Origin: Verrucomicrobiota bacterium JB024
GTDB taxonomy: Bacteria; Verrucomicrobiota; Verrucomicrobiia; Opitutales; Cerasicoccaceae
Direction: 5' to 3'
DNA: 64,000 nt
Assembly: GCA_030673825.1 (NCBI GenBank)
Contig: JAUTCS010000159.1
Coordinates: 1 to 64,000, forward strand
Below the pieces are notes generated by a model. The model was given only the letters and a program-made list of their open reading frames with translations. It was not told the origin of the DNA and made no database searches. How positions within the stretch are numbered: position 1 is the first letter of the stretch; each line of letters starts with the position of its first letter. Positions 11,073-31,112 of the stretch are shown in pieces. The position numbers and the translations under genes are program-made.

Positions 11073-11087
11073 GTTTATTCAATGAAG
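11073..11087 (-). promoter_or_regulatory. Candidate ROK operator, site 1
   Basis: GTTTATTCAATGAAG, centred on 11080, is 12 of 15 bases identical to the window consensus TTTCATTCAATGAAA. It lies 44 bp upstream of the small secreted protein gene (start 11029) in the divergent interval it shares with the symporter. Confidence 0.6.
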
Positions 11088-11160: not shown

Positions 11161-11204
11161 TTGACAGTTTGTTTCTATGATGCGAAATATTCCATTCAAT
11201 GAAA
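11161..11204 (+). promoter_or_regulatory. Symporter promoter with ROK operator, site 2
   Basis: A consensus -35 TTGACA stands at 11161-11166. An AT-rich -10 candidate (AAATAT, 11185-11190) follows after 18 bp. TTCCATTCAATGAAA at 11190-11204 (14 of 15 match to the consensus) covers the expected start of transcription. That arrangement fits repression of the SSS symporter gene. Confidence 0.65.
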
Positions 11205-11286
11205 TAAAAAGGCTGGCCACATATCTCACCAAACCGGTGTCTTGCGGTTCGGGCTCATGTGTATTCAGTCGAAAGGAAACATTTTT

Positions 11287-14143: not shown

Positions 14144-15001
14144 CTATTGCGCCAAGTCGATGTAGAGCGCCTCAATGTCCTGCTGGAGACGTTGGACGTG
14201 CCCGGTGACGAGGGCGAGCGGGGAGAGGGTGTCATCCTCCAGTAGCGGTGTCAGGTCGAGGGCGTAGGTCACCTTGTCCTGCTCATCGACACTGTGTGCA
14301 TCGAAGAAGGTGGCGTTGGCCAGGCGGCGGCCCTCGACGGCGAGGTCGTAGCGCTTGCCGCCGGTGATCTGCGAGTCAAAGACGCCGTTGAGCGCGGCGG
14401 CGAGGTTAGGGTGCCGACCGACGGGGAGCACGGCCTTGTCGGCGTCGCGTACCCAGTCGAGCCCGCGCCAGACTTCGCAGCCGAGGAGCTTTTTCGGGCG
14501 CATCTCCTGCGGTAGCGAGCGGATGGCCGCCAGCACCGCGAGAAAGACCCCGATGTGGGTGGCGTGCTTGTCGGCGGGGTTGTGAGTATAAACGACCTCG
14601 GGCTGGGCGGCAGTGAGGATGGCCCGTAAATCCTCGATCACGCGGGCGCGGGGCGTGGCGGTTTTGACCGCCGAGCTCGGGTGGGCCAGCTGCGCGACAA
14701 AGCCATACTGCCCGATGACGGCGGCGGCCCGCTGCTCCTGCACGCGCACGGCCTTCATCTGCTCGTCGGTAAAATTCTCATACGCGCCGGTGCGGGCGCT
14801 CCCGGCCCCGTCCGTGCAGGTCACCGCGCCGAACCACCGATCCGTGCGCTGAAAGCACTCCAAAATGCCGTGCAGGGCCATGAACTCCAGGTCGTCCTGA
14901 TGCGCGCCGATGCCCAGGTGGGTGGTACGGGCGAGGGCGTCCTGCGCGGGCAGGGCGTCGGGGATAAACAGGTCGGCGTTGGCTTGGGAAAAGATGGGCA
15001 T
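14144..15001 (-). CDS. PIG-L family deacetylase
   Basis: About 285 aa from ATG 15001; the frame is open upstream but there it overlaps the preceding gene. PIG-L/LmbE zinc enzymes remove the acetyl group from N-acetylglucosamine-containing substrates, and bacterial members include diacetylchitobiose deacetylases. The metal site is GIGAHQDDLEF (H34, D36, D37, the AHPDD motif with Gln for Pro) and the later VVYTHNPADKHATH block supplies the second His pair. No signal peptide. It is last in the minus-strand operon NagB-PIG-L / ROK-like / PIG-L, 19 bp after the ROK-like stop. Confidence 0.88.
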   Translation of the reverse strand: MPIFSQANADLFIPDALPAQDALARTTHLGIGAHQDDLEFMALHGILECFQRTDRWFGAVTCTDGAGSARTGAYENFTDEQMKAVRVQEQRAAAVIGQYGFVAQLAHPSSAVKTATPRARVIEDLRAILTAAQPEVVYTHNPADKHATHIGVFLAVLAAIRSLPQEMRPKKLLGCEVWRGLDWVRDADKAVLPVGRHPNLAAALNGVFDSQITGGKRYDLAVEGRRLANATFFDAHSVDEQDKVTYALDLTPLLEDDTLSPLALVTGHVQRLQQDIEALYIDLAQ

Positions 15002-15020
15002 GGTACGGGTGGGTGGAAAT

Positions 15021-16391
15021 TTAAAGGCGGGGCAGGCTGGCGGCGGCGATGGCCTGCCCATGACGTTTCATCTGTTCGTCGGGCGTGTCGAGTTGGATTT
15101 TCGCGGCCAGCTCCGGGAACTCCTCGCGCAGGACCGTTTGTGCCTGATCGAGAATTATCCGGCCGCCCTCGCCGGAGCTGACGCGCCCCAGCAGCAGCAG
15201 GTGGGTGAAATCGTAAAAGTCCGAGAAGTGCGCCAGCGCATAGCCGAAGTACACGCCGATCGTTTGGTAAATGGCGGCAGCGCGTTCGTCGCCTTCGGCC
15301 ATGCGGGACTGGACGGCTTCGAGGCGCTCGGGCAGCGAGGCGCGTTCGTCCACGGTGAGGCCGGAAGCCGGGATCAGCCGGGCCACGGCCTGTTGGGAAA
15401 AGTACTGCACGCCGCAGCCGTGGTCGCCGCTCCACTCGTCGCTCGGGGCGTCGTCCCGGTAGTCCACCGGGACGAAGGCCAGCTCATTAAGCCACCCGGT
15501 GACCTCCCCCTGCGGATCGACGTACCCGGCGGCCAGGCTCGTGCCCATGGAGATGCCCAGGACGGCGTTGGCCTTGAGGGACATGGCCCCGGCCAGCGCG
15601 GTGACGTCCCCGTCGTTAGCCACGGCGAAGGGGACGCCGTCCCACTCCTGCTGAAGCTGGCGGAAGAGCCCCCGGATGCTGCGGTCAAAATCTTCCGGCG
15701 AAACCCCGCGAAAGAGCGAGCCGGCGCGGGGTTCGTTGTTAATATAGATCCCGGCGGCGCTGCCTCCGATGGCATCGACGCGGGGCAGCCAGGCGGCGGC
15801 GAGCTGGAGGCTGTCGCGGATGCCTTCGAGGTGGTAGGCGGGGTCGGACTGGAAGTACGGGTCCCACTTGACCTCCTCGGAGTACACGACCTCGCCGTCG
15901 ATGAGCGCGGCGCATTTACGGTCGCTGCCCCCCAGGTCGAAGCCGATGCGGCAGCCCTTCAGGTTGTGCTCGACGCTCAGGCCGGGAGCATGGGCGGCGC
16001 GGGGCTGCGGGCGGCCTTCGCCGATGCTCATCGCCTCCCCAAAGCAGGTCTTTCCGATAAAGTCATGATCGAACGCGCGCGCCCCCTCGGGGCGGTAGGC
16101 CAGCTTGAGCCGGGAGACGATCTCGCGGGCGCCCTGCACGCGGATGCGGCTGCCCCCCCGGGCCCAGAGCAGGGTCTTGACCAGCCGCTCGGCGTAACGC
16201 CAGTTGCGCTCGGTGTGCTCGGGCAGGTCCGGGAGCATCGGCGTCATGAAGGTCCACGTCTGCCCGTCGGGTCGGGCGAGCGTGAAATGGACGGTGCGCG
16301 AACCGGCGGTCCGGGCCGCGTCGGCGCGGTAGTCGCGGTTCCAGCGGGCTGCCGGTACGAAGTCCGGGTCCAGAGGCGGATGGTGCGGCAT
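15021..16391 (-). CDS. ROK-like sugar kinase with extra N-terminal domain
   Basis: About 456 aa from ATG 16391. The ROK/hexokinase fold begins only near residue 150 (CRIGFDLGGSDRKCAAL, the phosphate-1 motif with the usual Gly-Gly-Thr replaced by Gly-Gly-Ser). It continues through GGSAAGIYIN, FAVANDGDVTALAGA (catalytic-Asp segment, ANDGD) and ISMGTSLAAGYV. A short Gly/Cys piece (GDHGCGVQYF) stands where ROK kinases have their zinc site, so only part of that site is kept. The roughly 150-residue N-terminal extension has no family I recognise. Its neighbours suggest it phosphorylates an amino sugar. It lies 19 bp after NagB-PIG-L. Confidence 0.8.
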   Translation of the reverse strand: MPHHPPLDPDFVPAARWNRDYRADAARTAGSRTVHFTLARPDGQTWTFMTPMLPDLPEHTERNWRYAERLVKTLLWARGGSRIRVQGAREIVSRLKLAYRPEGARAFDHDFIGKTCFGEAMSIGEGRPQPRAAHAPGLSVEHNLKGCRIGFDLGGSDRKCAALIDGEVVYSEEVKWDPYFQSDPAYHLEGIRDSLQLAAAWLPRVDAIGGSAAGIYINNEPRAGSLFRGVSPEDFDRSIRGLFRQLQQEWDGVPFAVANDGDVTALAGAMSLKANAVLGISMGTSLAAGYVDPQGEVTGWLNELAFVPVDYRDDAPSDEWSGDHGCGVQYFSQQAVARLIPASGLTVDERASLPERLEAVQSRMAEGDERAAAIYQTIGVYFGYALAHFSDFYDFTHLLLLGRVSSGEGGRIILDQAQTVLREEFPELAAKIQLDTPDEQMKRHGQAIAAASLPRL

Positions 16392-16410: not shown

Positions 16411-18327
16411 TCAGCTCTGCGGGAGGTAGCGTTTGAAGCCCTCAATGGCCTCGTACTCGGGCAGGCCGAGCGCATCGTAGGTCTTCGCTGTGGCGCGGTT
16501 GAGTTCGCTGGCGAGGTTCCAGGAGTTTTCGCTCTGGCGGCTGATGCTCGGGGACTGGCTGCGCTGGGTCTGGTGCTGATAGATGCCCTGGATCTTAAAG
16601 GTCAGCTCGTCGGGTGAGAGCGGGACCGCCATGTCCAGCTCGTGGATTTCCCACTCGGCCCCGTGGCCACGGTAGAGCCAGATCCAGCACTCGCCCAGCC
16701 AGTCAGCCCCGGCACAGGCCTTCAGCGCCTCGCGTAGAATCTCGAAACACAGCGCCGGGACCGAGAGCGGGTCGTGGCCCAGACCGGTGGCGAAAATCTG
16801 GTGCGGGCGCACCTCGTTGAGCAGCTCGACCATGGCGGAAACGTCCTCGGCCTGCGGCTGGAAGCGGCGGTAGCGCCCCTTCTCGTAAAAGGGCAGGTCG
16901 AGGAAGCGTAGGCGATCGGGCTCCAGCTCCAGTAATCGGGCTGAGGAGCGGGCTTCGCCGCGCCGGATGAGCCCCTTGAGATGACGGATGTCGGGGGTGT
17001 CTTCGCCGAACGCGCCCTTGCCATCGAGTTGCTTTTCCACCGCGCGGGCGTGCTTGACTTCGTCGGCGTTGCGCATCGTCTCGCCCAGCTCGATGATCAG
17101 CTCGATGGAGCGGCGGGCGTCCGTGTCCGGGACGGCGAGGTTGCCCGAGGTCAGGTAGGCGAGGGTGACGTCGTTGCCCTGATTGGCCAGCCGGTGAATG
17201 GTCCCGCCGAGGCAGAAAACGTCGTCAGTCGGCTCGGGGCTGAGGACGAGGGCCCGTTTGGGGAAGGGGTTGGCCCGCTCGGGTCGGTGGCTGTCGTCGG
17301 CCTTGGGCTTGCCGCCGGGCCAGCCGGTGATGGTGTGCTGCGTGGTGTTAAAGATGTCGATGTTGAGCTTGTAGGCGGAGCCTTTCTCCGTCAGCAGGTC
17401 GGCCATGCCGTTCTCGGTGTAGTCCTCGTCGGTCAGCTTGAGCAGGGGCTTTTGCGTGATCCCGGCCAGCCAGACCATGGCCTTGCGGATCATGGCGGGG
17501 GTCCACTCCACCGGGCCGACCAGCCAGGGGTGGCGCAGGCGGGTCAGGTGGCAACCGGCGGCCTCGTCGATGCAGAACACGCACTCGCGGTGCAGTTGGA
17601 GGAAGCTCGCCGGAATGGCGGCGGAGGGCTCGCCCTCGACGGCCTGGGCGATGACCCCGGCCTTGGCCTCGCCCCAGCCGAGCAGAAAGACTTGGCGGGC
17701 GTCGAGGATGGTGCCCACGCCCATGGTGATGGCGTGGCGGGGCACATTCTCCTCGCCGAGGAAGTCGCGGGCGGCGTCGCGGCGGGTGAGGCTGTCGAGG
17801 GTGACGAGGCGGGTGCGGCTGTCGGGGCCGGAGCCCGGCTCGTTAAAGCCGATGTGCCCGGTGCGGCCGATGCCGAGGATCTGGATGTCGATGCCCCCGG
17901 CCTGGCGGATGGCGGACTCGTAGCTCTGGCACGAGGCAAAGACCTTGTCGCGCGGGGCGAGGCCGTCGGGCACGTGGGTGTTCTCCGGCTTCAGGTCCAC
18001 GTGGTCGAAGAGCTGGTCCTGCATGAAGCGGCGGTAGCTCTCGGGGTGGCTGCCGGAAAGGCCGTAGTACTCGTCGAGGTTGAAGGTGATGACGTTCGCG
18101 AACGACAGTCCCTCCTCGCGGTGGCGGCGGATCAGCTCGCGGTACAGTCGCACCGGGGTCGAGCCGGTGGCCAGGCCGAGCACGGCGGGCTTGCCCTCGG
18201 CGGTACGCTGGCGGATCAGCGCCGTGATCGCGTCCGCGACGAACGTGCACGCGCCCTCGGCAGACGCATAAATCTGGGTCTGTATCTTCTCGCGCTGCGA
18301 CAGCTCGCTGATCTCTGTTTTCTTCAT
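16411..18327 (-). CDS. Glucosamine-6-P deaminase fused to PIG-L domain
   Basis: 638 aa. Residues 1 to about 285 are NagB-like (LGLATGSTP, FNLDEYYGL, LGIGRTGHIGFNEPGS), the deaminase that turns glucosamine-6-phosphate into fructose-6-phosphate and ammonia. Residues about 355-600 are a PIG-L-like domain. The same two-domain protein is known from Bacteroides-type genomes. Here the PIG-L motif is SPEPTDD (363-369) instead of SPHPDDD: Glu replaces the zinc His and Thr the first Asp, so this half is probably inactive. It heads a three-gene operon and diverges from an AraC regulator 74 bp away. A second, stand-alone NagB lies at 21213-21995. Confidence 0.88.
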   Translation of the reverse strand: MKKTEISELSQREKIQTQIYASAEGACTFVADAITALIRQRTAEGKPAVLGLATGSTPVRLYRELIRRHREEGLSFANVITFNLDEYYGLSGSHPESYRRFMQDQLFDHVDLKPENTHVPDGLAPRDKVFASCQSYESAIRQAGGIDIQILGIGRTGHIGFNEPGSGPDSRTRLVTLDSLTRRDAARDFLGEENVPRHAITMGVGTILDARQVFLLGWGEAKAGVIAQAVEGEPSAAIPASFLQLHRECVFCIDEAAGCHLTRLRHPWLVGPVEWTPAMIRKAMVWLAGITQKPLLKLTDEDYTENGMADLLTEKGSAYKLNIDIFNTTQHTITGWPGGKPKADDSHRPERANPFPKRALVLSPEPTDDVFCLGGTIHRLANQGNDVTLAYLTSGNLAVPDTDARRSIELIIELGETMRNADEVKHARAVEKQLDGKGAFGEDTPDIRHLKGLIRRGEARSSARLLELEPDRLRFLDLPFYEKGRYRRFQPQAEDVSAMVELLNEVRPHQIFATGLGHDPLSVPALCFEILREALKACAGADWLGECWIWLYRGHGAEWEIHELDMAVPLSPDELTFKIQGIYQHQTQRSQSPSISRQSENSWNLASELNRATAKTYDALGLPEYEAIEGFKRYLPQS

Positions 18328-19341: not shown

Positions 19342-20088
19342 TTAACGGTCGGCAATGACGTTGGCGTAGGTGACGGTGCCTTTTTCCATCAGGTCGGCAT
19401 GGCCGTCCACGAAGGCCACCGGCGCGAAGCCGCGGGCACGGTAGCGGAGCGCCCCGCCCACACCATCCACGTCGGAGTTGGTCGGGATAAGGGCGTCGAG
19501 ACTTTCCGTGCTGTTCGCGCGACGGAAGGCCGTGGGATTGGAAAAGCTGGCGTTGGCGTAGGTGCTGTTCGTTCGCTGGGTGCTTTCACCGACGAGGATG
19601 ATCTCGGCCGGACGCTGAATCATGGACTGGCGCATGGGCACGGCTCCACTGCTGGAGTCTGGGCAGATCAGCCCGTGCAGCGAGTAGGTGGAGGGAATGT
19701 AGCCCGCGTTGTAGTTGCCGTCCCTGACGGGGATTTCGGCCAGCGGGGAAACGAAGATGTTCCGGGAGCTTTCGCCAGAGGCGGTTTTCTGCTCCATGTA
19801 CGGCGAGAGCAGGACCACCCAGTTACGTTCGCCCTGACCGGGCTGGTAAAAGTAGCTGATCGGGTAGAGCCCGCCGTGCTCGGAGGCGTAGAGATTCAGT
19901 GCGGTGGCAATCTGCCGCAGGTTGCTGACAGAAGTGGATTCGCGGGCCGACTGGCGCACATAGTTGACCGCGGGGACCAGGATTGCGCAGAGGATCCCGA
20001 TGACCGCAATCACCGTCAGCAGCTCGATCAGACTGAACGCACCGGCTGCGCGCTTCCGGTGGCCGGGCTCTGCTGGGTGTCGGTTCAT
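19342..20088 (-). CDS. Type II-secretion-like prepilin
   Basis: About 248 aa from ATG 20088; upstream codons overlap the nagA end. It has a short basic leader, then G-AFSLIELLTVIAVIGILCAILVPAV, the class III prepilin cleavage site and hydrophobic helix, then a Ser/Thr-rich body with NLRQIATALNLYASEHGGLYP and an end FVDGHADLME. The FVDGHA end is typical of the DUF1559-like prepilins abundant in Planctomycetes and Verrucomicrobia. No pilus assembly gene is in the window, so this is an orphan. Its place between an AraC gene and nagA is unexplained. Confidence 0.88.
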   Translation of the reverse strand: MNRHPAEPGHRKRAAGAFSLIELLTVIAVIGILCAILVPAVNYVRQSARESTSVSNLRQIATALNLYASEHGGLYPISYFYQPGQGERNWVVLLSPYMEQKTASGESSRNIFVSPLAEIPVRDGNYNAGYIPSTYSLHGLICPDSSSGAVPMRQSMIQRPAEIILVGESTQRTNSTYANASFSNPTAFRRANSTESLDALIPTNSDVDGVGGALRYRARGFAPVAFVDGHADLMEKGTVTYANVIADR

Positions 20089-20215
20089 CTTGCCGGAAAG
20101 TATACTACGATGGGTGGTGCTTGGGGAAGCGTTAACCGCAAAAGCGCCCGCTGTCCAATCTGTGCCTTCGATTTTAGTCCCTGTCATTGTCTTCATCGCC
20201 ATTTTACCTTTTAGG

Positions 20216-21193
20216 TTAATTTTTGGTTGGTCGGGCAGTTTGAGGGGGCTTGGCAAGTAAGGGGGCGCTGATGCCGAGAACTTCCCGCACGCGGGAGCCG
20301 AGGGTCGCTGTGGCGGCGGTATGGGTGTAGCCCAGGTGGCGGGTCAGGTTGTCCACGGCCTCGTCGGGGCAGAGGGAGGAGCCGGCCAGTCCACCGCCAT
20401 CGGGCTGACGGGCGATGCCGTCGGCGCCCACGTGGACGCGCAGTTCGCCCAGCGTATAGTCCCCAGGAGGGGCGCCGGCAGCCGCCATGCAGTCGGTGGT
20501 GAAAATCACCTGTTCGGGTGGCTTGGCCCGGAGGAAGTTCTTCAGTATGTGAAAAGGAATGTGAATGCCGTCAGGAATGAAGCAGGCCGTCAGCTCGTCA
20601 CGGGAAAGCAGCCGCTGGATGATATTGTCATGGCGGGGCAGGTTCAGCGGGACGCCGTTGCCCAGATGGGTGCACAGCGTGGCCCCGGCTTCGATTGCCT
20701 GATCGATGTCGGTATGGCTGGCATTCGTGTGTCCCAAGCTGATGACTACATTCATATCGACGAGATCCCGGATCGCCGCTGCGGAGCCTTGGCGCTCGGG
20801 CGCGAGCGTCATCAGACGCAATTGACCATCCGCCGCCTCCACAAGCCGTAAGATGTCTTTCGGCGTCGGGTCGCGCGTCTCTTTAGCAGGATGCGCGCCA
20901 CAGTAGCCGGGCAGATGGCTGATAAAAGGGCCCTCCAGGTGGTAACCGGCGATGGTTTCCGCGATCAGGGGGGAAGCCTGGCGCCAGGCTTCGATTTTTT
21001 CGAGCTGGCGGCAGAGCTGAGTCACGGGAGCCGTGATCAGCGTCAGTAGGATGCCGCCAACCCGGCGTCGGCGAAGTTGTTCACAGGCGAACTCCAGCGC
21101 GGACTGGTTCAGGCACGGGCTCTGGAAATCGATGCCCGCAAAGCCGTTTACCTGCAGGTCGAAGAGCGGAGAGTCGTGCCGGAAATAGTCCAT
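20216..21193 (-). CDS. nagA: N-acetylglucosamine-6-phosphate deacetylase
   Basis: 325 aa. NagA removes acetate from GlcNAc-6-P, giving GlcN-6-P for NagB. Metal-binding blocks are visible: YHLEGPFISHLPGYCGAHP (first Glu), VISLGHTNAS (His), CTHLGN (His) and VIFTTDCMAAAG (catalytic Asp). It begins directly at the VNGFAGIDF segment, so it is about 50 residues shorter than the usual 380 aa and lacks most of the N-terminal small domain. No better start is available upstream: the nagB gene ends 19 bp before it. It is downstream of nagB on the minus strand. Confidence 0.92.
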   Translation of the reverse strand: MDYFRHDSPLFDLQVNGFAGIDFQSPCLNQSALEFACEQLRRRRVGGILLTLITAPVTQLCRQLEKIEAWRQASPLIAETIAGYHLEGPFISHLPGYCGAHPAKETRDPTPKDILRLVEAADGQLRLMTLAPERQGSAAAIRDLVDMNVVISLGHTNASHTDIDQAIEAGATLCTHLGNGVPLNLPRHDNIIQRLLSRDELTACFIPDGIHIPFHILKNFLRAKPPEQVIFTTDCMAAAGAPPGDYTLGELRVHVGADGIARQPDGGGLAGSSLCPDEAVDNLTRHLGYTHTAATATLGSRVREVLGISAPLLAKPPQTARPTKN

Positions 21194-21212: not shown

Positions 21213-21995
21213 TCAGGATGCGACCGTGTCCAGAAGGTAGGCCGCGTCGGGGTCGAGAAAAAGTCGGGCGGAGGGGTGGGTGCGCAGGATGGTGGCCGGG
21301 CACGCGGGGCTGATCGAGCCCAGCAGGGTCTCGCGGACAGCGGCGGCCTTGAGTTTGCCGGGGACGACGCAGGAGACGTGCTTACAATTAAAGAGGGTGG
21401 GGACAGTCAGGGTGAGCGCGTGCGTGGGCACTTCGTCGAGGGTGGGGAAGCAGCCGTCGTTGACCTGCTGCACGCGGCACTCCCGGTCGAGCTCGGCGGG
21501 TTTGATCGTCAAGGGGTCCTCAAAGTCCGCCACGCCCGGATCGTTAAAGGCGATATGGCCGTTTTCGCCGATGCCCATGCAGACGAGGTCCACGGGGGCC
21601 TCTTTCAGGAGCGCCGTGTAGCGTACGCATTCCTGCGGGATGGACGGGGCGTTCCCGCCGATGGCGTGAAACGCGCGCACGTGGACATGGCGCAGCAGGT
21701 GCTCCTGCAGGTAGTAGCGGAAGCTCTGGGGCTGGTCCGCGGAGAGCCCGATGTATTCGTCCATGTGAAAGACGGTAACGCGCTGCCAGTCCACGGCGTC
21801 CTTCTGCGCGACCAAGGCGCGCAGGAAATCGTCCTGAGAGGGCGCACAGGCGAAGATGACCCGCGCGTGCCCTTGCCGGGCGAGGGTGTCGTTGAGGGTG
21901 GCCAGCACGTGGCTGGCGGCTGCCTCGCCCTGGGTTGGGCGGTCGGCGGCGGTGTGGACCTTTAACCGGTCGAAAGTGGAGTCGTTGACTGACAT
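21213..21995 (-). CDS. nagB: Glucosamine-6-phosphate deaminase
   Basis: 260 aa, the normal stand-alone length. It isomerises and deaminates GlcN-6-P to Fru-6-P. Active-site segments: FHMDEYIGL (general base Asp), MGIGENGHIAFNDPG (His, and Glu of the catalytic triad) and the DRECR.Q...GCF block. The cell thus has two NagB copies, this one paired with nagA and the other fused to a PIG-L-like domain. It lies 35 bp downstream of the second GH20 gene, so the order GH20 - nagB - nagA forms one operon. Confidence 0.93.
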   Translation of the reverse strand: MSVNDSTFDRLKVHTAADRPTQGEAAASHVLATLNDTLARQGHARVIFACAPSQDDFLRALVAQKDAVDWQRVTVFHMDEYIGLSADQPQSFRYYLQEHLLRHVHVRAFHAIGGNAPSIPQECVRYTALLKEAPVDLVCMGIGENGHIAFNDPGVADFEDPLTIKPAELDRECRVQQVNDGCFPTLDEVPTHALTLTVPTLFNCKHVSCVVPGKLKAAAVRETLLGSISPACPATILRTHPSARLFLDPDAAYLLDTVAS

Positions 21996-22030: not shown

Positions 22031-23482
22031 TTAGCGCAGACTCAGGGCGGGGGCCTCAGGACTGGCTGCCTGTTTGCGCAGGCTGTTGCGAAAGTTGATC
22101 AGGAGGTACTCATTGATCTCCCAGGGGAAAACCGGCCTGTATTTGCGCGGGTCGTCCGGGAAGCGTTCCTGATCCCACACCCGCTCCAGCCACTCCAGCC
22201 ACTGGCGGCCCTCGGCGGTGAGTGCTTCCCCGGTCTCGGCGTTCGCCTCTCTGGCGGCCAAGTGGGCCGAGCGCCGGTAGAGGTACGCCATCCAGCCCGT
22301 GAACCGGCAAAGCGTGTCGTAGGCGCGGTGCTCGCGGCGAACGAGGTCCACCGAGTCTTGCAGGGTCTTGTAAATCTCGCTCCAGGCTGTTGCGCGTTCC
22401 GTGAGGTGCGCGGCGTCAAGTTCCTCGGGGGAGCCCTTGAGGATGCCCAGATACTCCTGGCGCTGCGGGGCGATGTACGAGCACCGGCACAGGGCCCGAA
22501 GCAGCGCCGAAGAGGGGACGATCCCGTGGAAGTCCTGCATGTGACGGGCCAATGACTGCGCGAGCGTCAGGCCATTTCCGGTCATGGCGTCGGCGGCCAC
22601 GCGCAGCGAGGGCCAGAGGCAGTCGTGCAGGTAGCGCATGGGCGTCCACACCGTGGTGAGCGCGCCGAGGACTTTTCCGGCTCCGCGCAGGCTCTGGTAC
22701 GAGCTCATGCGTGCGATGTTAGGCAGCGCGAAGTCGCCCGGGTAGGCCTGCTGATCGTAGGTGACGAGCCCCGGGCATAGCAGCACGCCGAAGCCCTTGT
22801 CGAGCACTGCTTGTGCGAGCGCGTCCGACACACCCGGTGTGTATTGCCAGACCGCGATGACGATGTCCTTGGGCAGATGATCGAGGAGTCCCGTGTCGTA
22901 ACTGGGCTGATCGACCCACATGATCATTTTCCGGCCGAGCCGCTTGATCTCATCGTAGATGAAGCGCGTGTACTCCGCGAATATCTCCACCTCGCTGCGG
23001 GTACGGAGGGCCTCCGCCGTCAGCGGGTGCCCGCCGAAGTGCACCTCGTCGAGTCCGGCGTGGATATACTCCGAGGGGAAAATTTCCGCGACATCGCGCA
23101 GGAGCTTTCTCATTAGGGCCCGGGTCTCCGGGTGGACGGGGCAGATCGCGGTAAAGTCGTGATCGTTCTCCAGCAGATGCCGGTACTGCGGGTGGCGCGT
23201 CAGGTAGCGTGAGTGCCCGAGCGTTTCCAGCTCAGGGATGAGCGTAATCCCCTGCGCCTGTGCGTAGTCGATCAGCTCCCGCATCTCGTCCGGCGAGTAG
23301 GCGTTCGGGTCACCGACCCGGGGGGCGCTGGGGAAATCCAGCGTGCAGCCCTGGTCGTCCGTGAAGTGCCAAAGCAGCGTGTTCATCCCGCTCTGCGCGC
23401 TGAAGCGTATCAGGCGTTTGTAGTAGTCCCGGTTTTCCAGACACCGGGCACTGTCGATCATAAATCCGTGTATCTTGCTCAT
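22031..23482 (-). CDS. GH20-type beta-N-acetylhexosaminidase, signal-less
   Basis: 483 aa from ATG 23482. The long open frame upstream of it contains a regulatory palindrome and is non-coding. The first residues (MSKIHGFMIDSARC) enter the barrel directly, so the usual N-terminal GH20b domain and signal peptide are missing. TDDQGCTLDFPSAPRVG and YIHAGLDEVHFGG carry the signature; D145/E146 are the predicted catalytic pair. Predicted cytoplasmic. It heads the GH20-nagB-nagA operon and is divergent from the ROK repressor gene. A ROK operator sits about 141 bp upstream. Activity on chitooligosaccharides or N-glycan fragments fits the context. Confidence 0.87.
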   Translation of the reverse strand: MSKIHGFMIDSARCLENRDYYKRLIRFSAQSGMNTLLWHFTDDQGCTLDFPSAPRVGDPNAYSPDEMRELIDYAQAQGITLIPELETLGHSRYLTRHPQYRHLLENDHDFTAICPVHPETRALMRKLLRDVAEIFPSEYIHAGLDEVHFGGHPLTAEALRTRSEVEIFAEYTRFIYDEIKRLGRKMIMWVDQPSYDTGLLDHLPKDIVIAVWQYTPGVSDALAQAVLDKGFGVLLCPGLVTYDQQAYPGDFALPNIARMSSYQSLRGAGKVLGALTTVWTPMRYLHDCLWPSLRVAADAMTGNGLTLAQSLARHMQDFHGIVPSSALLRALCRCSYIAPQRQEYLGILKGSPEELDAAHLTERATAWSEIYKTLQDSVDLVRREHRAYDTLCRFTGWMAYLYRRSAHLAAREANAETGEALTAEGRQWLEWLERVWDQERFPDDPRKYRPVFPWEINEYLLINFRNSLRKQAASPEAPALSLR

Positions 23483-23622
23483 GCTTGCGGTCGGGGGAAA
23501 GTTCCTCCCGGCAGGTGGTGTGAAGGTCTTCGCGGGCGGAGTTCTACCGCCCAGGACCGTCACGCCGATTAGCTTTACGGCTCTTATTGATAAGCGGATG
23601 TGCGCGGGGGTCAAGGTAAATG

Positions 23623-23637
23623 TTTCATTCAATGAAT
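23623..23637. promoter_or_regulatory. Candidate ROK operator, site 3
   Basis: TTTCATTCAATGAAT (14 of 15 to consensus) lies between the divergent GH20 and ROK repressor genes, 132-155 bp from each start. It could therefore control both, including autorepression. A 12-nt perfect palindrome CACGGGCCCGTG stands next to it at 23645-23656. Confidence 0.65.
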
Positions 23638-23768
23638 TTATGTCCACGGGCCCGTGCGCATGAATATCCGCGCAGGGATTGGGAGTGATGGGAGCGGAAT
23701 GGTTTGTTGTTCCTCTGGCTGAACTATTAGTCTTGCCCACCGGAAGCGTTCCCCAAAGAACAGGGGGT

Positions 23769-24929
23769 ATGCATTCTTCAGAAAGTATGTTGGGGGGGAT
23801 GAAGCCGACCCCGAAGGGCAAGGCTGGGGCTGGCTTTGAAAAGCCGAAAAACAACCGCAAGCAGGCACAGATCGCCAACCGGCTGCGGGTGTTGCGCCTG
23901 ATCTACTCCCGCCGGCAGTACTCGCAGCGCCTCATCGTCCGCGAGACACAGATGCAGGCCTCGACCATTTCCAACATCGTATCCGAGCTGATCAGCTCCG
24001 GCCTCGTGGTCGAGGGCGAGGCGCGCGAGAGCAGCCGCGTGGGGCCCAAGGAAACGATCCTGCACATCAATCCGCGCGCGGCCTACGCGGTCGGGATCAA
24101 CTTCCACACCTTCGCGCACGAGATCTGTATCTTTGACGGCGACGGGACACTGATCGCCGAAGAGGTTTACGAGAAGGAGTGGAGTAACCGGACGCTGGGA
24201 CAGCTGCCCCGGCAGATCGAGTCCGTGGCCCGCCGGGCCGGGCTGACGATGCCTCAGATCAACGGGGTAGGGGTATCCATCCCCGGTATCGTCAACCCTG
24301 ATGAGGGCATGGTCATCCTCTCCCGCGCCCTTAAGCTGGAGAACTACCCGATCCGCGACGTTTTGCAGGAGAAGCTTAATCTCCCCGTCTTCGTGGACCG
24401 CAATGTGAATTTCGGCACCTACTATGAGCAGTATATGAATCCCGATGAGTACTGGGACAACTCCGGTTACCTGTTGGTCAAGCTCAACTCCATGCCGCAT
24501 CTGAAGTCGCCCTTTTCGCTGGGCTTGGGTATCAACGTCAACGGCGAGATCTACCGCGGGGCGAACGACGCGGCAGGCGAGCTCGACGCCGTGCTCATCC
24601 CGCCCGATTTGGAAGAGGTCGGCCAGCGTGGCGGCGTCGATACCGTTGTTTTCTTCTCCCGGCTGGGCCATCTGCTCGCCTCGGCGATCAACCTGCTCGA
24701 CATCGGCCATCTCGTCATCGCCTCCGATCAGGTGTCGATGGAGCGCGAGCATTTCGAGGTCCTGGAATCATCGCTCAGTCAGTCGTTGATCCCTATCACC
24801 GAGCGCCGGTTCAGCATCCGCTTCGCTCGGAACGGTCTGGCCGATCTTTCCAAGGGCACCGCCCTGTGGGTCCTGCATGCGTGCCTGGAGTCGGCGCTGG
24901 GCGGCCATATTCTCAGCGCGAGTAAGTAG
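23769..24929 (+). CDS. ROK-family repressor (NagC/XylR type)
   Basis: About 386 aa from ATG 23769, which follows AACAGGGGG; ATG 23787 or 23799 are possible. The N-terminal winged helix-turn-helix is at about residues 30-95 (LRVLRLIYSRRQYSQRLIV...STISNIVSELISSGLV). The ROK domain follows: AVGINFHTFAHEICIF replaces the kinase phosphate motif DxGGT, so it is a sugar sensor, not an enzyme. GVGVSIPGIVN, FVDRNVNFGTYYEQ and the late GINVNGEIYRGANDAAGELD are ROK landmarks. The zinc motif CxCGxxGC is absent. It is flanked by five matching palindromes in the region, so it is the likely regulator. GlcNAc-6-P is a plausible effector, as for E. coli NagC. Confidence 0.9.
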   Translation: MHSSESMLGGMKPTPKGKAGAGFEKPKNNRKQAQIANRLRVLRLIYSRRQYSQRLIVRETQMQASTISNIVSELISSGLVVEGEARESSRVGPKETILHINPRAAYAVGINFHTFAHEICIFDGDGTLIAEEVYEKEWSNRTLGQLPRQIESVARRAGLTMPQINGVGVSIPGIVNPDEGMVILSRALKLENYPIRDVLQEKLNLPVFVDRNVNFGTYYEQYMNPDEYWDNSGYLLVKLNSMPHLKSPFSLGLGINVNGEIYRGANDAAGELDAVLIPPDLEEVGQRGGVDTVVFFSRLGHLLASAINLLDIGHLVIASDQVSMEREHFEVLESSLSQSLIPITERRFSIRFARNGLADLSKGTALWVLHACLESALGGHILSASK

Positions 24930-24979: not shown

Positions 24980-25019
24980 TTGACGGATTTGCTGAAAACA
25001 AATAATTCATTAAATGAAA
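24980..25019 (+). promoter_or_regulatory. Promoter with ROK operator, site 4
   Basis: A -35 TTGACG (24980-24985) and a 17-bp spacer lead to a weak -10 TAATTC (25003-25008). ATTCATTAAATGAAA (25005-25019, 13 of 15 to consensus) overlaps that -10. It is 52 bp upstream of the PEP-CTERM-tailed protein gene. This geometry fits direct repression. Confidence 0.65.
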
Positions 25020-25070: not shown

Positions 25071-25772
25071 ATGAACAAGGTAATATTATGTACGCTATTC
25101 GCGGTCGTGGCCGCTTCCGGGAACCTGTTCTCTGACGTTACGATCGATAATTTTGACAGCTATACGACCTCGGCGGAACTGCAGACCTACTGGAACTCCT
25201 TCGGCGCGGCCAGCGCGGGCCTTCCCGCTCTGAACGTCGGTGGAGGCGTGGGCGGCACGAATGCCGCGCGTTATGGTCTGGTCTGGAGCGCGGGTAACAA
25301 CGCCAATATGCGGATGTTCAATGTCCCCTCCGGCGTGCAGGATCTGAGTGCGGCCACCTCGGTTGAAGTGACTCTGTATATCGTCACTCGCGATGGCTTC
25401 AGTGCCCCCACCGATCCCACGGCACTTAAACTCGTGATCCAGGGCGGGGCCAATGACTCCATCTGGCAGACGACCGATGCCGCCGCTGTCAGCCTGAGTA
25501 ATACGAGTTATTCCACGGTGGGCTTTACGCTCAACACGACCGACATGGAGCGCGTTGGCGGTAGCGATTCGCTGACCGATACCCTGGCCGCCATTACGTC
25601 CATCCGCCTGCGCTTTGAGAATGCGGTCGAGAGCAATGTGATTCAGGATGCCTATATCGATTCGATCGTCGCCGTGACGGTTCCAGAGGCCGAACACTAC
25701 GCTTCCTTCGCGGCGATTGGTGTGCTCCTGATTACGATGGTTTACCGTCGGCGCGGCTGTCGTCAGGGATAA
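25071..25772 (+). CDS. PEP-CTERM-like secreted protein, paralogue of 10406-11029
   Basis: 233 aa: signal peptide (about 1-20), then a jelly-roll-like domain starting VTIDNFDSY and ending RLRFEN...DAYIDSIVAV, then a tail VPEAEHYASFAAIGVLLIT with basic MVYRRRG. That tail has the order of PEP-CTERM sorting signals: a Pro-Glu motif, a single hydrophobic helix, then arginines. The tail is the only clear difference from its paralogue at 10406-11029. Carbohydrate binding is suggested by fold pattern only. Its ROK operator ties it to the amino-sugar genes. No exosortase gene is in this window. Confidence 0.75.
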   Translation: MNKVILCTLFAVVAASGNLFSDVTIDNFDSYTTSAELQTYWNSFGAASAGLPALNVGGGVGGTNAARYGLVWSAGNNANMRMFNVPSGVQDLSAATSVEVTLYIVTRDGFSAPTDPTALKLVIQGGANDSIWQTTDAAAVSLSNTSYSTVGFTLNTTDMERVGGSDSLTDTLAAITSIRLRFENAVESNVIQDAYIDSIVAVTVPEAEHYASFAAIGVLLITMVYRRRGCRQG

Positions 25773-25858
25773 CCTCCGTGCTCTCGTCTTTGCACATTTC
25801 CAAGGCTGCCTGAGGGCGGTTGCATCGCCAAACAAATCCAGTTATGTTTATTTCTCTG

Positions 25859-26914
25859 ATGTTATCAGGAGTGAGAGTTAGGTTAACCCGGTGGCAACCC
25901 GCGCGCAGCCTGCGCGTGTGGTTGGCTGCCGCTGCGTTGACTTTGCCCCTGTACGCCCGCGGCTCGGATGCGAATGCCTGTTGCGCTGCGCAAATGCCCC
26001 AGTCGGAGCAGCAGTCGGGCTCATTGATCGCCCCCGGCGCCAAGCTGGGCATGTGGGTCTGGCACGCGCAACCGGTGTATGACGCCGGGGCGCGGGCCGA
26101 CCTGATCAGCTTCTGCCAGCGCTTCGGGATTAACCGCCTGTTCGTTCAGGTGCGCCTCAACAAGGAGGGTGGAGCTTACCAGATGGAGAATCCGCAGGCG
26201 TGGGCGGCGTTTCTGGCGCAGGCCCACGAGGCGGGTATTCAGGTGGAGGCGCTCGACGGGGCCGGAGACATGGGCTTCGCGAACAACCGTGCCGACACCC
26301 TGGCCAAGCTCGACGCGGTCCTGGCCTTTCAGGATTCGCTCCCGGCGGGGGAGGGCTTTTCCGGGCTGCATTACGACATCGAGCCCTATGTTACCGGTCG
26401 CTGGAAGACCGGCGACAAGCAGCAGGTCGCACTCGAACTGCTGGAGACGATGCAGGATATTTGCCAAAAGGTGGAGGACGCCGATCCGGACCTTACCATC
26501 ACCCACGACATTCCCTTCTGGTACAGCGGTCGGGATGAGCTGGCGGTGGAGTTCGACGGCGAGACCAAGTACCTCGACGAGCACATTCAGGATCTGGCCG
26601 ATGGCGTCGGCATCATGTCCTACCGCACGAAAATGACCGGGGGCAATTCGGTGGTCGCCATTACAGAGGAAGAGATGGCCTATGCCCGTCTGACGGGCGG
26701 GAGCGTCTATCTTTCGCTGGAGACGGTGCCGCTGGCTGAGACACCCACCATCACCTTTCACGGGCGCGATGGCGCGGAGCTGATCGCCGCTGTTCAGGAG
26801 CTGAACGCGACGCTTCAGGGCGATCCAGCCTTCGGCGGGATCAACTTGCACTGCTACCGTACCTTGCGCCCGATGCTTGAGCCGGTGAAGCCCACCGACT
26901 TGGCCACCAATTAA
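25859..26914 (+). CDS. Secreted putative TIM-barrel hydrolase, unknown family
   Basis: About 351 aa from ATG 25859; starts at 25820 (TTG) or 25844 are possible. It has a basic, then hydrophobic N-terminus (RVWLAAAALTLPLYA) and then a region with TIM-barrel spacing: GMWVWHAQPVYD, NRLFVQVRLNKEGG, GIQVEALDG, GLHYDIEPY, LTITHDIPFWY, GIMSYRTK, VYLSLETVP, GINLHCYRTL. HYDIEP resembles the acidic strand-4 motif of sugar hydrolases, and HDIPFWY and the SLETVP Glu are candidate active-site elements. I cannot name a CAZy family. It sits between the PEP-CTERM-tailed protein and the pseudopilin-like gene and could be read from the same operator-controlled promoter. Confidence 0.7.
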   Translation: MLSGVRVRLTRWQPARSLRVWLAAAALTLPLYARGSDANACCAAQMPQSEQQSGSLIAPGAKLGMWVWHAQPVYDAGARADLISFCQRFGINRLFVQVRLNKEGGAYQMENPQAWAAFLAQAHEAGIQVEALDGAGDMGFANNRADTLAKLDAVLAFQDSLPAGEGFSGLHYDIEPYVTGRWKTGDKQQVALELLETMQDICQKVEDADPDLTITHDIPFWYSGRDELAVEFDGETKYLDEHIQDLADGVGIMSYRTKMTGGNSVVAITEEEMAYARLTGGSVYLSLETVPLAETPTITFHGRDGAELIAAVQELNATLQGDPAFGGINLHCYRTLRPMLEPVKPTDLATN

Positions 26915-26965: not shown

Positions 26966-27289
26966 AAACCTCTCTCACAAAAACATCTACAGCGCGCTTG
27001 CGAAGGGCATTACCTAGCGCTGTCAGGAGCGCGTTTTCTACCTGGTTATCCACCCCGATTTTCTCTCCTCGCCCCCCCGGCCTCAACCCCTAATCATCAA
27101 GCCAGTGGAACAACGAGAGGCGATGCCTCCCCGGTCCCGGCGCGATTCTGCAAGGGGCGGTCTGCCCGCCACTTCAATGGTACCGCCGCCCCTTTGACCA
27201 TAGCCGTCAAATAATTATACTCACACATTGATCTGAAAGAAGTGGCATGACGGGTGCTTGATTGTTTCATTCAATAAAATAATTGAGTG
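26966..27289. other. Gene-free leader before the pseudopilin-like gene
   Basis: No credible gene is seen. The stretch holds the promoter at 27194-27221 and operator site 5 at 27265-27279 (see next entry); the rest is unremarkable GC-rich sequence. Confidence 0.6.
27194..27279 (+). promoter_or_regulatory. Promoter and ROK operator, site 5
   Basis: A -35 TTGACC (27194-27199), 16 bp and a -10 TATACT (27216-27221) give a good sigma-70-like promoter. TTTCATTCAATAAAA (27265-27279, 14 of 15 to consensus) then lies just 8-11 bp before the start codon, about 40 bp downstream of the likely transcription start. Repression here would act as a roadblock, unlike sites 2 and 4. Confidence 0.6.
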
Positions 27290-30200
27290 ATGCCTATTTT
27301 CGAACTCCGCCAAAAACCGAGCAATATGTACCACAGGGTCTCCCGCCATCGACGCTACTGTAAGCCCGGGTTTGCCCTCGTGGTTGCCCTGACGTTGATG
27401 GGGTTTATCTTCCTGCTGGTTGTGTCACTGGCCACCTCGGCACGGCTGGAGATGGCGACGAGCAGCTCGCAGAAGACCGCGACGCTGGCGCGGGAAAACG
27501 CTCGTCTGGGCTTGCTCACAGCCCTCGCGCACCTGCAGCGAAGCGCAGGTCCTGACCAGCGGGCGACGGCGCGCGCGGACATTCTCGGGTCTGCCGATCC
27601 GGTGAACAAATACTGGACCGGCGTGTGGTCGACGACTGACGGCACACTCCAGACCTGGCTCGTGTCCGGGAATGCCAGTTCTCAGCATCCTGTGGACTTT
27701 ACGCCTGACCTGGAGCCGGATAACGCCGTGGTGCTGCTGGGCAGCGAAGGCCAGGCCGGTGCCGTCGAGGCGCCGCTCGTCAGCATCGAGAGCGTGGAGG
27801 GCGATACGATGGGGCACTACGCCTACTGGATTGCCGATGAGGGCATTAAGGCGCGCATCAACCTCGACGACACGAGATGGAACAGCTCCGAGGCTGCCGC
27901 CGTCCAGAGCGGACGGCAGGTCTCCGGCAGATTCGGCATCGAGGCGATGAGCGTGTGGCATCCACTGGCGGACTATCAGGGCGATTCCGGCTGGGGGCAT
28001 GCGCTGGGGCAGCTCGTTTCCGAATCACAGCTTCCCCTCTTATTCCAGAGCTGGAGCTCGGGGGACGCATCCGCCATCGATTGGCAGTCTCACACTCACG
28101 ACGCGACGCTGGTATCGAACTCGCTGGCAGTGGATGCCTCCGGCGGTGGGTTAAAGCTTGATCTGTCCCGCATCCTGGAGCCGGGTTTCTATGCGCCGGG
28201 CTATGGCGAGTCGGACTTACTGATCGAGGATGCCGACGCCCCCATGATTACCTGGGGCGCTCTCCGCAGTTTCGCCAACCCGTGGGACACCTGGGCGCAG
28301 GCACAGGTAAACTATCCTCAGGTCGCTCCGCGTGCGCCCCGCAGTGACCAGGCGGGCCTTTTCCCGATTCCCGTACTGGTGCAGATGGGGTGGGGGGCGA
28401 TCCGCTCGGGCACAGGACCGGGTAGCACGCTCTTACTGACCATGAAGCCCGTGGTTGTATTGGTAAATCCCTACGACACGGCGTTGGAGCCCGCCAGCTA
28501 TCAGCTCGTGTGGACACCGGACGAGGGCCGGGGGCTGGTGATGATCACTTTCGATCCCGAGCCGCGACCGGCTGCCGCCGAGTTTCAGGAGGGGGTGAAC
28601 ACGCGGCCCACCGAATTTTACCCGAAAAACCTCCTCGGGGAATATCCCACGCTGACGATCCGCGACGCGGCTTTCGAGCCGGGGGAGATCAAGGTCTTCA
28701 GTCCCATCGAGACGGAGGAATACCCGGACGCGGGCGAGAACGGCATCGAACTGGGCAGCCAGTATCCGTCGGTCGCCTACAGCTGGAAAGACACTCGCCG
28801 CGAGCTGGGTAGCTATACCCGCAGCGCCGATGGCAAAGTCACCCTCCAGATCAGCGGCGGGAAAATGACGGTCGATTACCGGCTTCTGGAAGGGGCGGCC
28901 TGGGCACCCTTACAGTCTATTCAGGAGATCGGCATCGGGATGTCCCCGAGCGCCTCCCAGGTCGGTAACGCCGGTCAGCCCAAGATCCAGGTCAGCCTGG
29001 AGCCGGAGAGCGCGGGTGCCATGCCCCCCTCGATCAACCTCATCCGCCGTCGTCTGGTCATGCGCAGCTCGGCCTCTTCCTACGTTTCGGATTATTACAC
29101 GGGGAGTGGATTGCGTTGGCTGGCCGACTTCAACCCCCGTGCCTATGGGGCAAATGCGCGCCCGCCCGAGTGGAATTCGCACCCGCTGTGGATGGCCGAC
29201 GCGGGGAACACCAATAACCAGCTGCCCGTCGGCGCGGACTGGTTTGTCGATTACGAACTGACCGCGAGCGGCGCGCCCCGGGGGTTCTGGGGACCGTCCA
29301 CAGACGCCAGCGGCGAAAGCGTCACGACACTCTTCAGCGTGCCGCGTACGCCGATCCTTTCGCTGGGATTTTTACAGCACGCGCCGATGGGCCTTCGCGT
29401 CTGGGACCCCGCCTATCCCTTTGGAAACTCCTACGCCAACCCGTTTGTCCCGCTGGAGGACAAGGACATCGGCTATGAACTTAACGAAGCCTTTTGGGAC
29501 CGCTATTTCTTTTCCGGCCTGACACGGGATGAGGTTACAGACGAATGGGAGGTACTTAACCCGCGCATTAAACGGCTCGACGATACTGACGACACACTCG
29601 TCGATAACTACCAGGGCGCGGCGGCGGCCGTCACTGTTGAGGGCGGCTTCAATGTGAACTCGACTTCGCTGGAGGCATGGAAGGCCCTGTTAAGCAATTT
29701 CAACGGGCAGGACATCGACTACTACAATACGCAGACCGGCCAGAGCTCGCAGGCTCATCTGGGCAGCAGTTTTTTCCGCACACTCAACCCCAACGGCTCC
29801 GGCGGCGAGGATTGGCGCGGGTACCACGCGCTTAGCGATGAGCAGATCGAGCGGCTGGCCGCGCAGATAGTCTACCGTATCCGCGAGCGCGGAGCGCCCT
29901 TCACCTCCTTGCAGGAGTTTGTCAACCGGCCCTTGGGCGAGCTCTCAGGGCTCTTGCAGGAGGCTATCGACAGTGATGAGACGGTGTCGGTTGACGGTGT
30001 CGAATATCCGCCGACAGGTATCAACGATGACCTGAAAACTCCCCGTGTGTCCACCTACGATGCAGGTACCGTCTCCAGTCCGAGCGCCGGTCTGGGAGCC
30101 CGCTCGACAGCCTCTCCGGGCTGGCTGACGCAGGCCGACATTCTCACGGCGGTGGCTCCGCTCATTCAGGTGCGCTCCGACACTTTTATCATTCGCGCCT

Positions 30201-30385
30201 ATGGAAACACCACTGATCCGATCAGCGGGGAGGTCGTTGCCGAGGCCCGCTGCGAAGCCGTCGTGCAGCGCGTTCCCCGTCCGCTCAATCCGACGGGTGC
30301 CGATCCTTCCAGCCCGGATTACTACACGGTGGCCGATAACTTTGGCCGTGCCTTTACGATCATCCACTTCAAATGGTTAAACTGA
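27290..30385 (+). CDS. Very large pseudopilin-like protein (Verru_Chthon cassette A type)
   Basis: 1031 aa from ATG 27290 (GTG 27287 adjacent). The N-terminus is basic, then GFALVVALTLMGFIFLLVVSLATSARLEM, a prepilin-like hydrophobic helix with ALVV in place of the usual FTLIE. The helix continues as a heptad-like stretch (TATLARENARLGLLTALAHLQ), as in GspK/PilX-type minor pseudopilins. Similar long proteins are annotated as 'Verru_Chthon cassette protein A' in Verrucomicrobia. A GspK-like helical part is visible near the end (EQIERLAAQIVYRIRERGAPFTSLQEFVNRPLGELSGLL). The large middle is mostly beta-rich with Trp/Tyr patches. Operator site 5 precedes it. Its role in this sugar locus is unknown. 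Confidence 0.75.
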   Translation: MPIFELRQKPSNMYHRVSRHRRYCKPGFALVVALTLMGFIFLLVVSLATSARLEMATSSSQKTATLARENARLGLLTALAHLQRSAGPDQRATARADILGSADPVNKYWTGVWSTTDGTLQTWLVSGNASSQHPVDFTPDLEPDNAVVLLGSEGQAGAVEAPLVSIESVEGDTMGHYAYWIADEGIKARINLDDTRWNSSEAAAVQSGRQVSGRFGIEAMSVWHPLADYQGDSGWGHALGQLVSESQLPLLFQSWSSGDASAIDWQSHTHDATLVSNSLAVDASGGGLKLDLSRILEPGFYAPGYGESDLLIEDADAPMITWGALRSFANPWDTWAQAQVNYPQVAPRAPRSDQAGLFPIPVLVQMGWGAIRSGTGPGSTLLLTMKPVVVLVNPYDTALEPASYQLVWTPDEGRGLVMITFDPEPRPAAAEFQEGVNTRPTEFYPKNLLGEYPTLTIRDAAFEPGEIKVFSPIETEEYPDAGENGIELGSQYPSVAYSWKDTRRELGSYTRSADGKVTLQISGGKMTVDYRLLEGAAWAPLQSIQEIGIGMSPSASQVGNAGQPKIQVSLEPESAGAMPPSINLIRRRLVMRSSASSYVSDYYTGSGLRWLADFNPRAYGANARPPEWNSHPLWMADAGNTNNQLPVGADWFVDYELTASGAPRGFWGPSTDASGESVTTLFSVPRTPILSLGFLQHAPMGLRVWDPAYPFGNSYANPFVPLEDKDIGYELNEAFWDRYFFSGLTRDEVTDEWEVLNPRIKRLDDTDDTLVDNYQGAAAAVTVEGGFNVNSTSLEAWKALLSNFNGQDIDYYNTQTGQSSQAHLGSSFFRTLNPNGSGGEDWRGYHALSDEQIERLAAQIVYRIRERGAPFTSLQEFVNRPLGELSGLLQEAIDSDETVSVDGVEYPPTGINDDLKTPRVSTYDAGTVSSPSAGLGARSTASPGWLTQADILTAVAPLIQVRSDTFIIRAYGNTTDPISGEVVAEARCEAVVQRVPRPLNPTGADPSSPDYYTVADNFGRAFTIIHFKWLN

Positions 30386-30386
30386 T

Positions 30387-31112
30387 ATGACGCATAAAAT
30401 GAACACCCTCGTGCTGACCCTGCTGCTGGGGAGCGCCCTGACGGGCTCCGCCCGGGCCGAACCGGCCTCTGACGTGTCTTTTTCCTTTCGCGCCATCACC
30501 TGGTCAGATGCGCCCCTGGCGGGGCTGACCATTCCCACCGCGGGTAACCCGCTGGTGATCGACGCGCCGGTCAATCAGCGCTCGCGGGCCTATGAATACC
30601 GGGGCGACCCGACGGTGGAAATTTATCCCGGGAAGGACATGACCGACGCGAGTCCGGTCGGGCAGTTTGTCGCCGGTCCGAACTGGAGTCAGGTCTTGCT
30701 CTTTCTGCTGCCGAACCCGCGTGGCGGCGATGTCAAGGTGTTCGCCATGGATGACAGCCTGAGCGCGTTTCCCCCCGACACCGTGCGTTTCGTGAACCTC
30801 TCGGGGAAGACGATCGCGGGCTTTCTGGGAAATCAGAAAGTCGTTCTGGAAAACATGGACGATAAGCAACTCTCCGCCGCTGGCGGCGCCGCCTTCCTGC
30901 CCATCCGCTTTGCGGAAAGCTCAAGCGAGCAGGGCGGCTGGAAGCGTTTCCTGTCCTCCGCTGTCGGCGTCAACAAGGGCATGCGGACACTCATCGTCTT
31001 CTATCCGGGATCAGCGGATAACCAGCGTACGGGCAAAGAAATCTGCTACAAACTCTTCTATGATTATCCCGCTACGAGCAGTAGTGTCGTGGCCGGAAAC
31101 ACTCAGCGGTGA
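30387..31112 (+). CDS. Secreted hypothetical protein coupled to the pseudopilin gene
   Basis: 241 aa: signal peptide (about 1-24, ending ARA-E), then a soluble all-beta-looking domain without a known motif. Its ATG begins one base after the previous stop (TGA 30383-30385), so expression is coupled to the 1031-aa protein. No lipobox or PEP-CTERM tail. A partner or periplasmic chaperone of that protein is a reasonable guess, nothing more. It ends 25 bp before the convergent GH42-like gene. Confidence 0.7.
   Translation: MTHKMNTLVLTLLLGSALTGSARAEPASDVSFSFRAITWSDAPLAGLTIPTAGNPLVIDAPVNQRSRAYEYRGDPTVEIYPGKDMTDASPVGQFVAGPNWSQVLLFLLPNPRGGDVKVFAMDDSLSAFPPDTVRFVNLSGKTIAGFLGNQKVVLENMDDKQLSAAGGAAFLPIRFAESSSEQGGWKRFLSSAVGVNKGMRTLIVFYPGSADNQRTGKEICYKLFYDYPATSSSVVAGNTQR

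Follow-up and report, generated by a model that had tools for sequence, protein, structure and literature searches.

The window, meaning the whole stretch of 64,000 nucleotides of contig JAUTCS010000159.1 of Verrucomicrobiota bacterium JB024 that was analysed, contains an amino-sugar locus in which a ROK-family regulator, nag genes and shared operators are found together with two adjacent genes, here called A and B. The features of this locus are listed below with their coordinates in the window, and operator sites are given relative to the pattern TTTCATTNAATGAAA.

8268 to 10313, minus strand: GH20 with a Glyco_H_20C_C domain (Pfam).
10406 to 11029, minus strand: small exported protein, found behind operators in relatives also (no Pfam hit).
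11073 to 11087: possible weak operator upstream of the 10406 gene (3 mismatches).
11190 to 11204, no strand assigned: operator between the 10406 gene (minus) and the SSF symporter (plus), at most one mismatch.
11242 to 13344, plus strand: sodium:solute symporter, probable amino-sugar importer (PF00474, E 8.5e-17; 84 % orthologue in the G005 regulon).
19342 to 20256, minus strand: second pseudopilin, GspG/DUF1559-type, with a GFxxxE-type leader (PF07596, E 6.5e-10; TIGR01710, E 2e-7).
20216 to 21193, minus strand: NagA-like GlcNAc-6-phosphate deacetylase, assigned from sequence (61-62 % in the orthologous operons).
21213 to 21995, minus strand: NagB-like glucosamine-6-phosphate deaminase, assigned likewise (61 % to its counterpart in the orthologous operons).
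22031 to 23500, minus strand: GH20 hexosaminidase (Pfam E 8e-31), which in both orthologous operons comes third, after A and B.
23623 to 23637, no strand assigned: operator between GH20-nagB-nagA-pseudopilin (minus) and the ROK gene (plus), at most one mismatch.
23679 to 24929, plus strand: ROK-family regulator with an N-terminal winged-helix region (Pfam ROK E 7e-14; weak MarR_2/HTH matches below the gathering cut-off), start probably downstream of 23679.
25005 to 25019, no strand assigned: operator upstream of the 25071 gene, at most one mismatch.
25820 to 26914, plus strand: exported protein of the amino-sugar regulon that four relatives also have in their NAG loci (no Pfam family).
27265 to 27279, plus strand: operator 5, TTTCATTCAATAAAA, upstream of A (one mismatch; exact copies in place in both orthologues, L138:10787 and L140:13370).
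27326 to 30385, plus strand: gene A, predicted giant minor pseudopilin-like protein with the GspK fold (start probably at ATG 27326, with the frame open from GTG 27287 and ATG 27290 possible too; AlphaFold2 pTM 0.83; Z 11.6-12.7 against GspK/XcpX; about 24 paralogues).
30387 to 31112, plus strand: gene B, exported protein with two predicted beta-sandwich domains and cassette partner of A (AlphaFold2 pLDDT 89; PepT1/2 ectodomain-like; homologue after 22 of 24 own A frames).

The operators and the place of A in the amino-sugar regulon

A search of the 4.6 Mb genome for TTTCATTNAATGAAA with at most one mismatch gave four sites (11190, 23623, 25005 and 27265), all in the window, and the reversed-pattern control gave zero sites in the genome at the same threshold. 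The ROK domain, the winged-helix region (weak HTH) and the palindromic operators shared at nag genes are traits of a NagC-like ROK regulon. True orthologues of A were found at 55-56 % identity in two genomes of another genus of the same family (G003 and G004), and in both of them A is first in an operon A-B-GH20-NagB-NagA that lies behind an exact palindrome and is divergent from the ROK orthologue. Among the best two candidates per genome in 372 genomes of the order no further A orthologue was found at this level. An initial annotation of this DNA had tied A to amino-sugar control, and the rare operator, the ROK regulator and the GH20-nagB-nagA operon kept in both orthologues agree with this, so that the placement of A in the amino-sugar regulon is well supported by the sequence comparison. 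The same annotation had named orthologues in unrelated contexts without the operator as evidence against its proposal; neither of the two true orthologues is of this kind, and only the paralogues, at about 30-46 % identity, are found in such contexts.

Two other genomes, G005 and G009, contain the amino-sugar regulon and its operators and have neither A nor B. As the regulon and operators are kept there without the pair, A and B are, on this gene content, a recruited and accessory member of the amino-sugar regulon. Their absence from these two regulons and the presence of paralogues in unrelated loci would also fit a mobile passenger that came to lie behind an amino-sugar operator by chance and is functionally unrelated to amino sugars. 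This we consider highly improbable, since both orthologues, in another genus, keep A and B first in the nag operon with the exact operator and the A copy in the window, which sits in a rearranged locus, has still kept an operator of its own.

Several other features of these loci were observed. The 19342-20256 pseudopilin gene and the end of nagA overlap, and in G003, G004 and G005 this pseudopilin again lies near the NAG genes; its position beside nagA means that the amino-sugar locus holds two different pseudopilins. It also gave hits to the Verru_Chthon cassette proteins C and D that were below cut-off. Small exported proteins occur repeatedly right behind operators, both in the window (10406-11029 and 25071-25772, the latter with a PEP-CTERM-like match) and in loci of relatives (L138, L139, L140, L147 and L148). 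In two relatives two large frames beside the ROK gene (L138:4898-9511 and L140:14658-19274), apparently an ABC importer, fuse permease domains (BPD_transp_1) with a solute-binding or GH42-like domain. Fused glucosamine-6-phosphate isomerase and PIG-L-type de-N-acetylase domains are encoded at 16411-18327 on the minus strand with a single-domain PIG-L nearby (14144-15061), and a CBM9/GH42 protein is encoded downstream of B.

Gene A and its resemblance to GspK

The A frame (27287-30385, plus strand) is open for 1032 aa from GTG 27287 or 1031 aa from ATG 27290. The start at ATG 27326, which gives the leader MYHRVSRHRRYCKPG, is more likely to be the true one than either of these because this leader resembles the probable leaders of both orthologues. 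The operator would then end 46 bp upstream of A, not 7 or 10 bp as for the starts at 27287 or 27290, and in the two orthologues the corresponding gap is 58 and 61 bp. Operator 5 had initially been placed 8-11 bp from the start codon; the operator itself is real and the distance is likely to be 46 bp. A sigma-70-like site (TTGACC-16-TATACT) lies upstream of the operator at 27194-27221, although such matches occur at near chance level. The N-terminus of A reads KPG and, after the cleavage site, FALVVALTLMGFIFLLVVSLATSARLEM, which is a class III prepilin leader with a hydrophobic helix; the basic leader ends in Pro-Gly and a residue other than Glu is found at mature position 5. The stop codon of A ends at 30385 and the ATG of B follows one base later at 30387.

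The structure of A was modelled with AlphaFold2 from 65 sequences (pLDDT 77, pTM 0.83), which gave a single helix at residues 16-74 and an insertion with parts at a pLDDT below 50. Foldseek alone ranked 3ci0_K first for this model but with an E of 0.15. When the 272 best Foldseek candidates were aligned to the model with VIA-align, four chains reached Z of 8 or more and all four were GspK/XcpX (6utu_C 12.7, 5vtm_X 12.6, 9a1f_T 12.4 and 3ci0_K 11.6), while the next-best chain was at Z 2.6. These chains align to the model over 223-257 residues at about 3 A, and for XcpX 225 of its 261 residues are aligned (3.0 A, Z 12.7). The initial annotation had described a prepilin-like N-terminus and GspK-like helix in a protein of about 1031 aa and had called for structure prediction; the leader and the predicted fold agree with that description, and the model matches GspK/XcpX at Z 11.6-12.7.

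Comparison of sequence profiles pointed to the same family at the N-terminus. Alignment of A with the canonical GspK set by hhalign gave E values of 4.5e-5 to 1e-5 over the N-terminal ~80 residues and no significant match outside them; the C-terminal half was tried separately and an NxN[ST] motif aligned there at P about 0.1, which is not significant. The GspK model NF037980 matched 23 of 25 relatives of A (best E 9.5e-11), with the match limited to the N-terminal region in those relatives inspected singly. A itself had no hit to NF037980 or PF03934, belonged to no Pfam family and matched TIGR02600 at the N-terminus only, and a PDB sequence search with the A profile returned nothing even at E 10. 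A search of the genome with PF03934 found one paralogue of A below cut-off, at E 0.11. The best hit of this model, C20, was considered as a GspK and rejected, since it carries an S1 domain and a ComEA-like helix-hairpin-helix. Taken together, the structure matches and the N-terminal profile matches predict that A has the whole GspK/XcpX fold plus about 760 extra residues. On the model, A is a structural homologue of GspK that lies outside the GspK equivalog family.

In the type II system the established tip subunit is GspK, which has no Glu5. The ordinary GspK of this genome (386 aa) is single and lies in a gsp cluster on a separate contig, C117, that comprises GspH, a frame in the I/J position that carries a second prepilin leader, GspK, a frame in the L position with no family match, GspM, GspD and GspE. 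Residues 29-329 of this GspK match NF037980 with an E of 7e-30 and 104.6 bits, where the cut-off is 130, and its cleavage site, between G and AILM, is likewise without Glu at +5. An ordinary GspK was found in 45 of 52 genomes of the order, nearly always as a single copy. A is encoded outside the gsp operon.

The A family and its partner B

When its own genome was searched with A, 61 matching stretches were found; these belong to about 24 open frames, of which nearly all have 1000-1260 codons. The family shares the motifs GFALxxxL, GPDQR, YAYWVGDEGVKA, NPY and GAFNVNSTS together with RGPFxSLxDFVNR, RSDTFxIRAYG, CEAxVQR and GRRFxIVSFRWL. With the A profile, members were detected in 38 of the 52 genomes searched in the order, from 1 up to at least 17 listed matches per genome. 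More than 500 relatives of A were found in the public genome collection, and the best 79 are in Verrucomicrobiota and Kiritimatiellota with Cerasicoccus, Coraliomargarita, Luteolibacter and Haloferula among the hosts (named isolates included). By these searches A does not stand alone: about 24 A+B cassettes are present in this genome, and the family is spread across the phylum.

The other A paralogues are in different loci, often with sulfatases. Among 79 proteins that neighbour other A+B pairs, with gene calls taken as simple longest open frames, 12 were sulfatases, and AraC and LacI regulators, beta-helix proteins and sugar transporters were also present. In the control, a small set of 68 proteins from other regions, there was no sulfatase among the families listed; for each set the first 25 families were considered.

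The secreted protein that had been reported one base after A is confirmed, as the start of B, MTHKMNTLVLTLLLGSALTGSARA with the cut before EP, reads as a Sec signal peptide. A homologue of B directly follows A in 21 of the 24 own frames at strict spacing and in 22 when one over-extended frame is counted; of the two frames without B, one is cut by the contig end and one has none. In the relatives the corresponding counts were 70 of 82 at strict spacing and about 79 of 82 with over-extended frames. In two relatives (L086 and L128) a second B-like gene was seen slightly downstream of A. B was assigned to no known family by the family-model searches, and AlphaFold2 predicted two beta-sandwich domains at pLDDT 89. 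The nearest solved structures were the tandem Ig-like ectodomains of PepT1/PepT2 (Z up to 14.3), and Caf1M was the single chaperone among the structural matches listed (E 0.04). The suggestion that B is the chaperone of A is not supported by these matches, which show tandem beta-sandwiches nearest to the PepT1/PepT2 extracellular domain and no family hit. A pore-forming toxin was also considered, given the likeness of the second domain of B to the domain with which cholesterol-dependent cytolysins bind membranes, and it was rejected as the second domain equally resembles HGSNAT, AlgF and transthyretin and is a common beta-sandwich.

The number of copies per genome, the huge insertion and the fact that no gsp genes were seen beside A would suit an envelope-anchored surface or periplasmic protein that has kept a pseudopilin anchor and enters no filament, with B as its periplasmic binding partner. 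The cleavage-site Gly, in contrast, is near-invariant (65 of 65 aligned relatives, none of which has Glu at +5) and the helix is conserved in the same 65 relatives, which argues for continued processing and packing of A and makes this explanation improbable. If A does enter a filament, a type IV pilus is conceivable, as the genome encodes several PilB/PilT/GspE-type ATPases. A would then be the pilus tip, a modular minor pilin anchoring the cell to a glycan, and B would be an accessory protein of adhesion; modular glycan-binding tip pilins do exist (PMC9934059, PMC8179133) and one A paralogue had a weak PilX_N hit (E 0.076). However, the GspK model matches relatives of A far more often than PilX_N does, and the structural matches of A are to type II secretion GspK/XcpX and cover most of that protein, and we judge the type IV pilus tip to be unlikely, if less so than a protein outside any filament.

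Proposed role and comparison with known systems

We favour, with moderate confidence, the interpretation that A is a giant GspK-fold minor pseudopilin that is made together with B under ROK/amino-sugar control and serves as a substrate-specific pseudopilus tip. In this mechanism the ROK repressor of the amino-sugar genes would bind the operator before A and be released by a hexosamine-derived signal, and expression of A and B would then accompany that of the hexosaminidases, the importer, NagA and NagB. After cleavage by the prepilin peptidase, A would take the place of the housekeeping GspK, or sit beside it, at the tip of the type II pseudopilus (a related type 4 filament is the alternative), where it may bind a glycan at the outer membrane or select the enzymes exported to digest it. 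The insertion of A, together with B, would deal with one glycan or its enzymes. The ROK repression, the signal, the assembly into a filament, the position at the tip and the binding targets of A and B are what we infer, and an inducible, interchangeable tip of the type II pseudopilus appears to be the most economical reading of A. In this polysaccharide-eating bacterium the tip of a secretion filament may thus be changed according to the food. An inducible tip is made plausible by the alginate-induced pseudopilin of Verruconatronum alginivorum (PMC13274419) and by the tip pilins of Streptococcus sanguinis, which are modular and bind glycans or host receptors (PMC9934059; also PMC8179133).

A wider form of this proposal is possible, and we put it forward only tentatively: a single type II secretion machine would be supplied with inducible giant GspK-type tips, some two dozen in all and each tied to one glycan locus and a B protein of its own, that are swapped according to the polysaccharide met, and the amino-sugar A would be among them. 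The selection of cargo in type II secretion has long been an open question, and the pseudopilus is proposed to have GspK at its tip. One ordinary GspK together with some two dozen giant substrate-linked versions would let tip exchange, and the choice of cargo or glycan, be studied as a natural experiment. The proposal also offers a testable function for a large family that is below the cut-offs of the libraries searched and for its equally unrecognised partner B, and the amino-sugar A is the easiest member to test because its operator and regulator are defined.

Like GspK/XcpX of type II secretion (NF037980, PF03934; 3CI0, 5VTM, 6UTU, 9A1F), A has a leader, no Glu5 and a long N-terminal helix, and its predicted core covers most of the length of GspK. 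A differs in its ~760 extra residues, its many copies outside the gsp operon and its B partner, and it is below the GspK model cut-offs with significant sequence similarity at the N-terminus only.

Verru_Chthon cassette protein A (TIGR02600) is about 1300 aa with a GspK-like N-terminus, and hhalign matched it to the A family at 96 % and E 1.8e-9 with two more weak colinear matches, at a FWTDDESxKxNINT motif and at the C-terminus. Membership of A in TIGR02600 was rejected (14.2 bits over residues 28-85 against a cut-off of 332.3), and no TIGR cassette hit was found for the B, 25071 and 25820 genes. Of 145 genomes of the phylum, only 2 had TIGR02600 members above the cut-off (G118 and G130, L186-L194, ~4 copies each), in contrast to the 38 of 52 genomes of the order with the A family. 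Based on the colinear profile matches the two look like sister groups of giant GspK-type proteins. Among the papers listed by a literature search none used the term 'Verru_Chthon', and a paper on polysaccharide use in Verrucomicrobiota (PMC8857213) does not mention pilins.

As in NagC/NagR-type ROK regulons, a ROK protein, palindromic AT-rich operators and nag genes occur together here, and the difference is that pseudopilins are included and that the effector and binding are putative. Streptococcus sanguinis PilB/PilC (PMC8179133, PMC9934059) have an adhesive or glycan-binding module grafted on a pilin, as is proposed for A, although these belong to a monoderm type IV pilus, their modules have no shown relation to A and they do not form a large family over sugar loci. 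In Verruconatronum alginivorum (PMC13274419) a pseudopilin was among the proteins over-expressed on alginate and the genome has 67 PulG-like homologues. This case resembles A in coming from the Verrucomicrobiota and in linking a pseudopilin, there over-expressed with polysaccharide-degradation clusters, to glycan use. It differs in that the proteins are described as PulG-like (the major type) and not as GspK-like and in that the substrate is alginate and not an amino sugar, with no operator described in the parts consulted (PMC13274419). The alginate-induced pseudopilin of Verruconatronum alginivorum is the closest precedent for A (PMC13274419).
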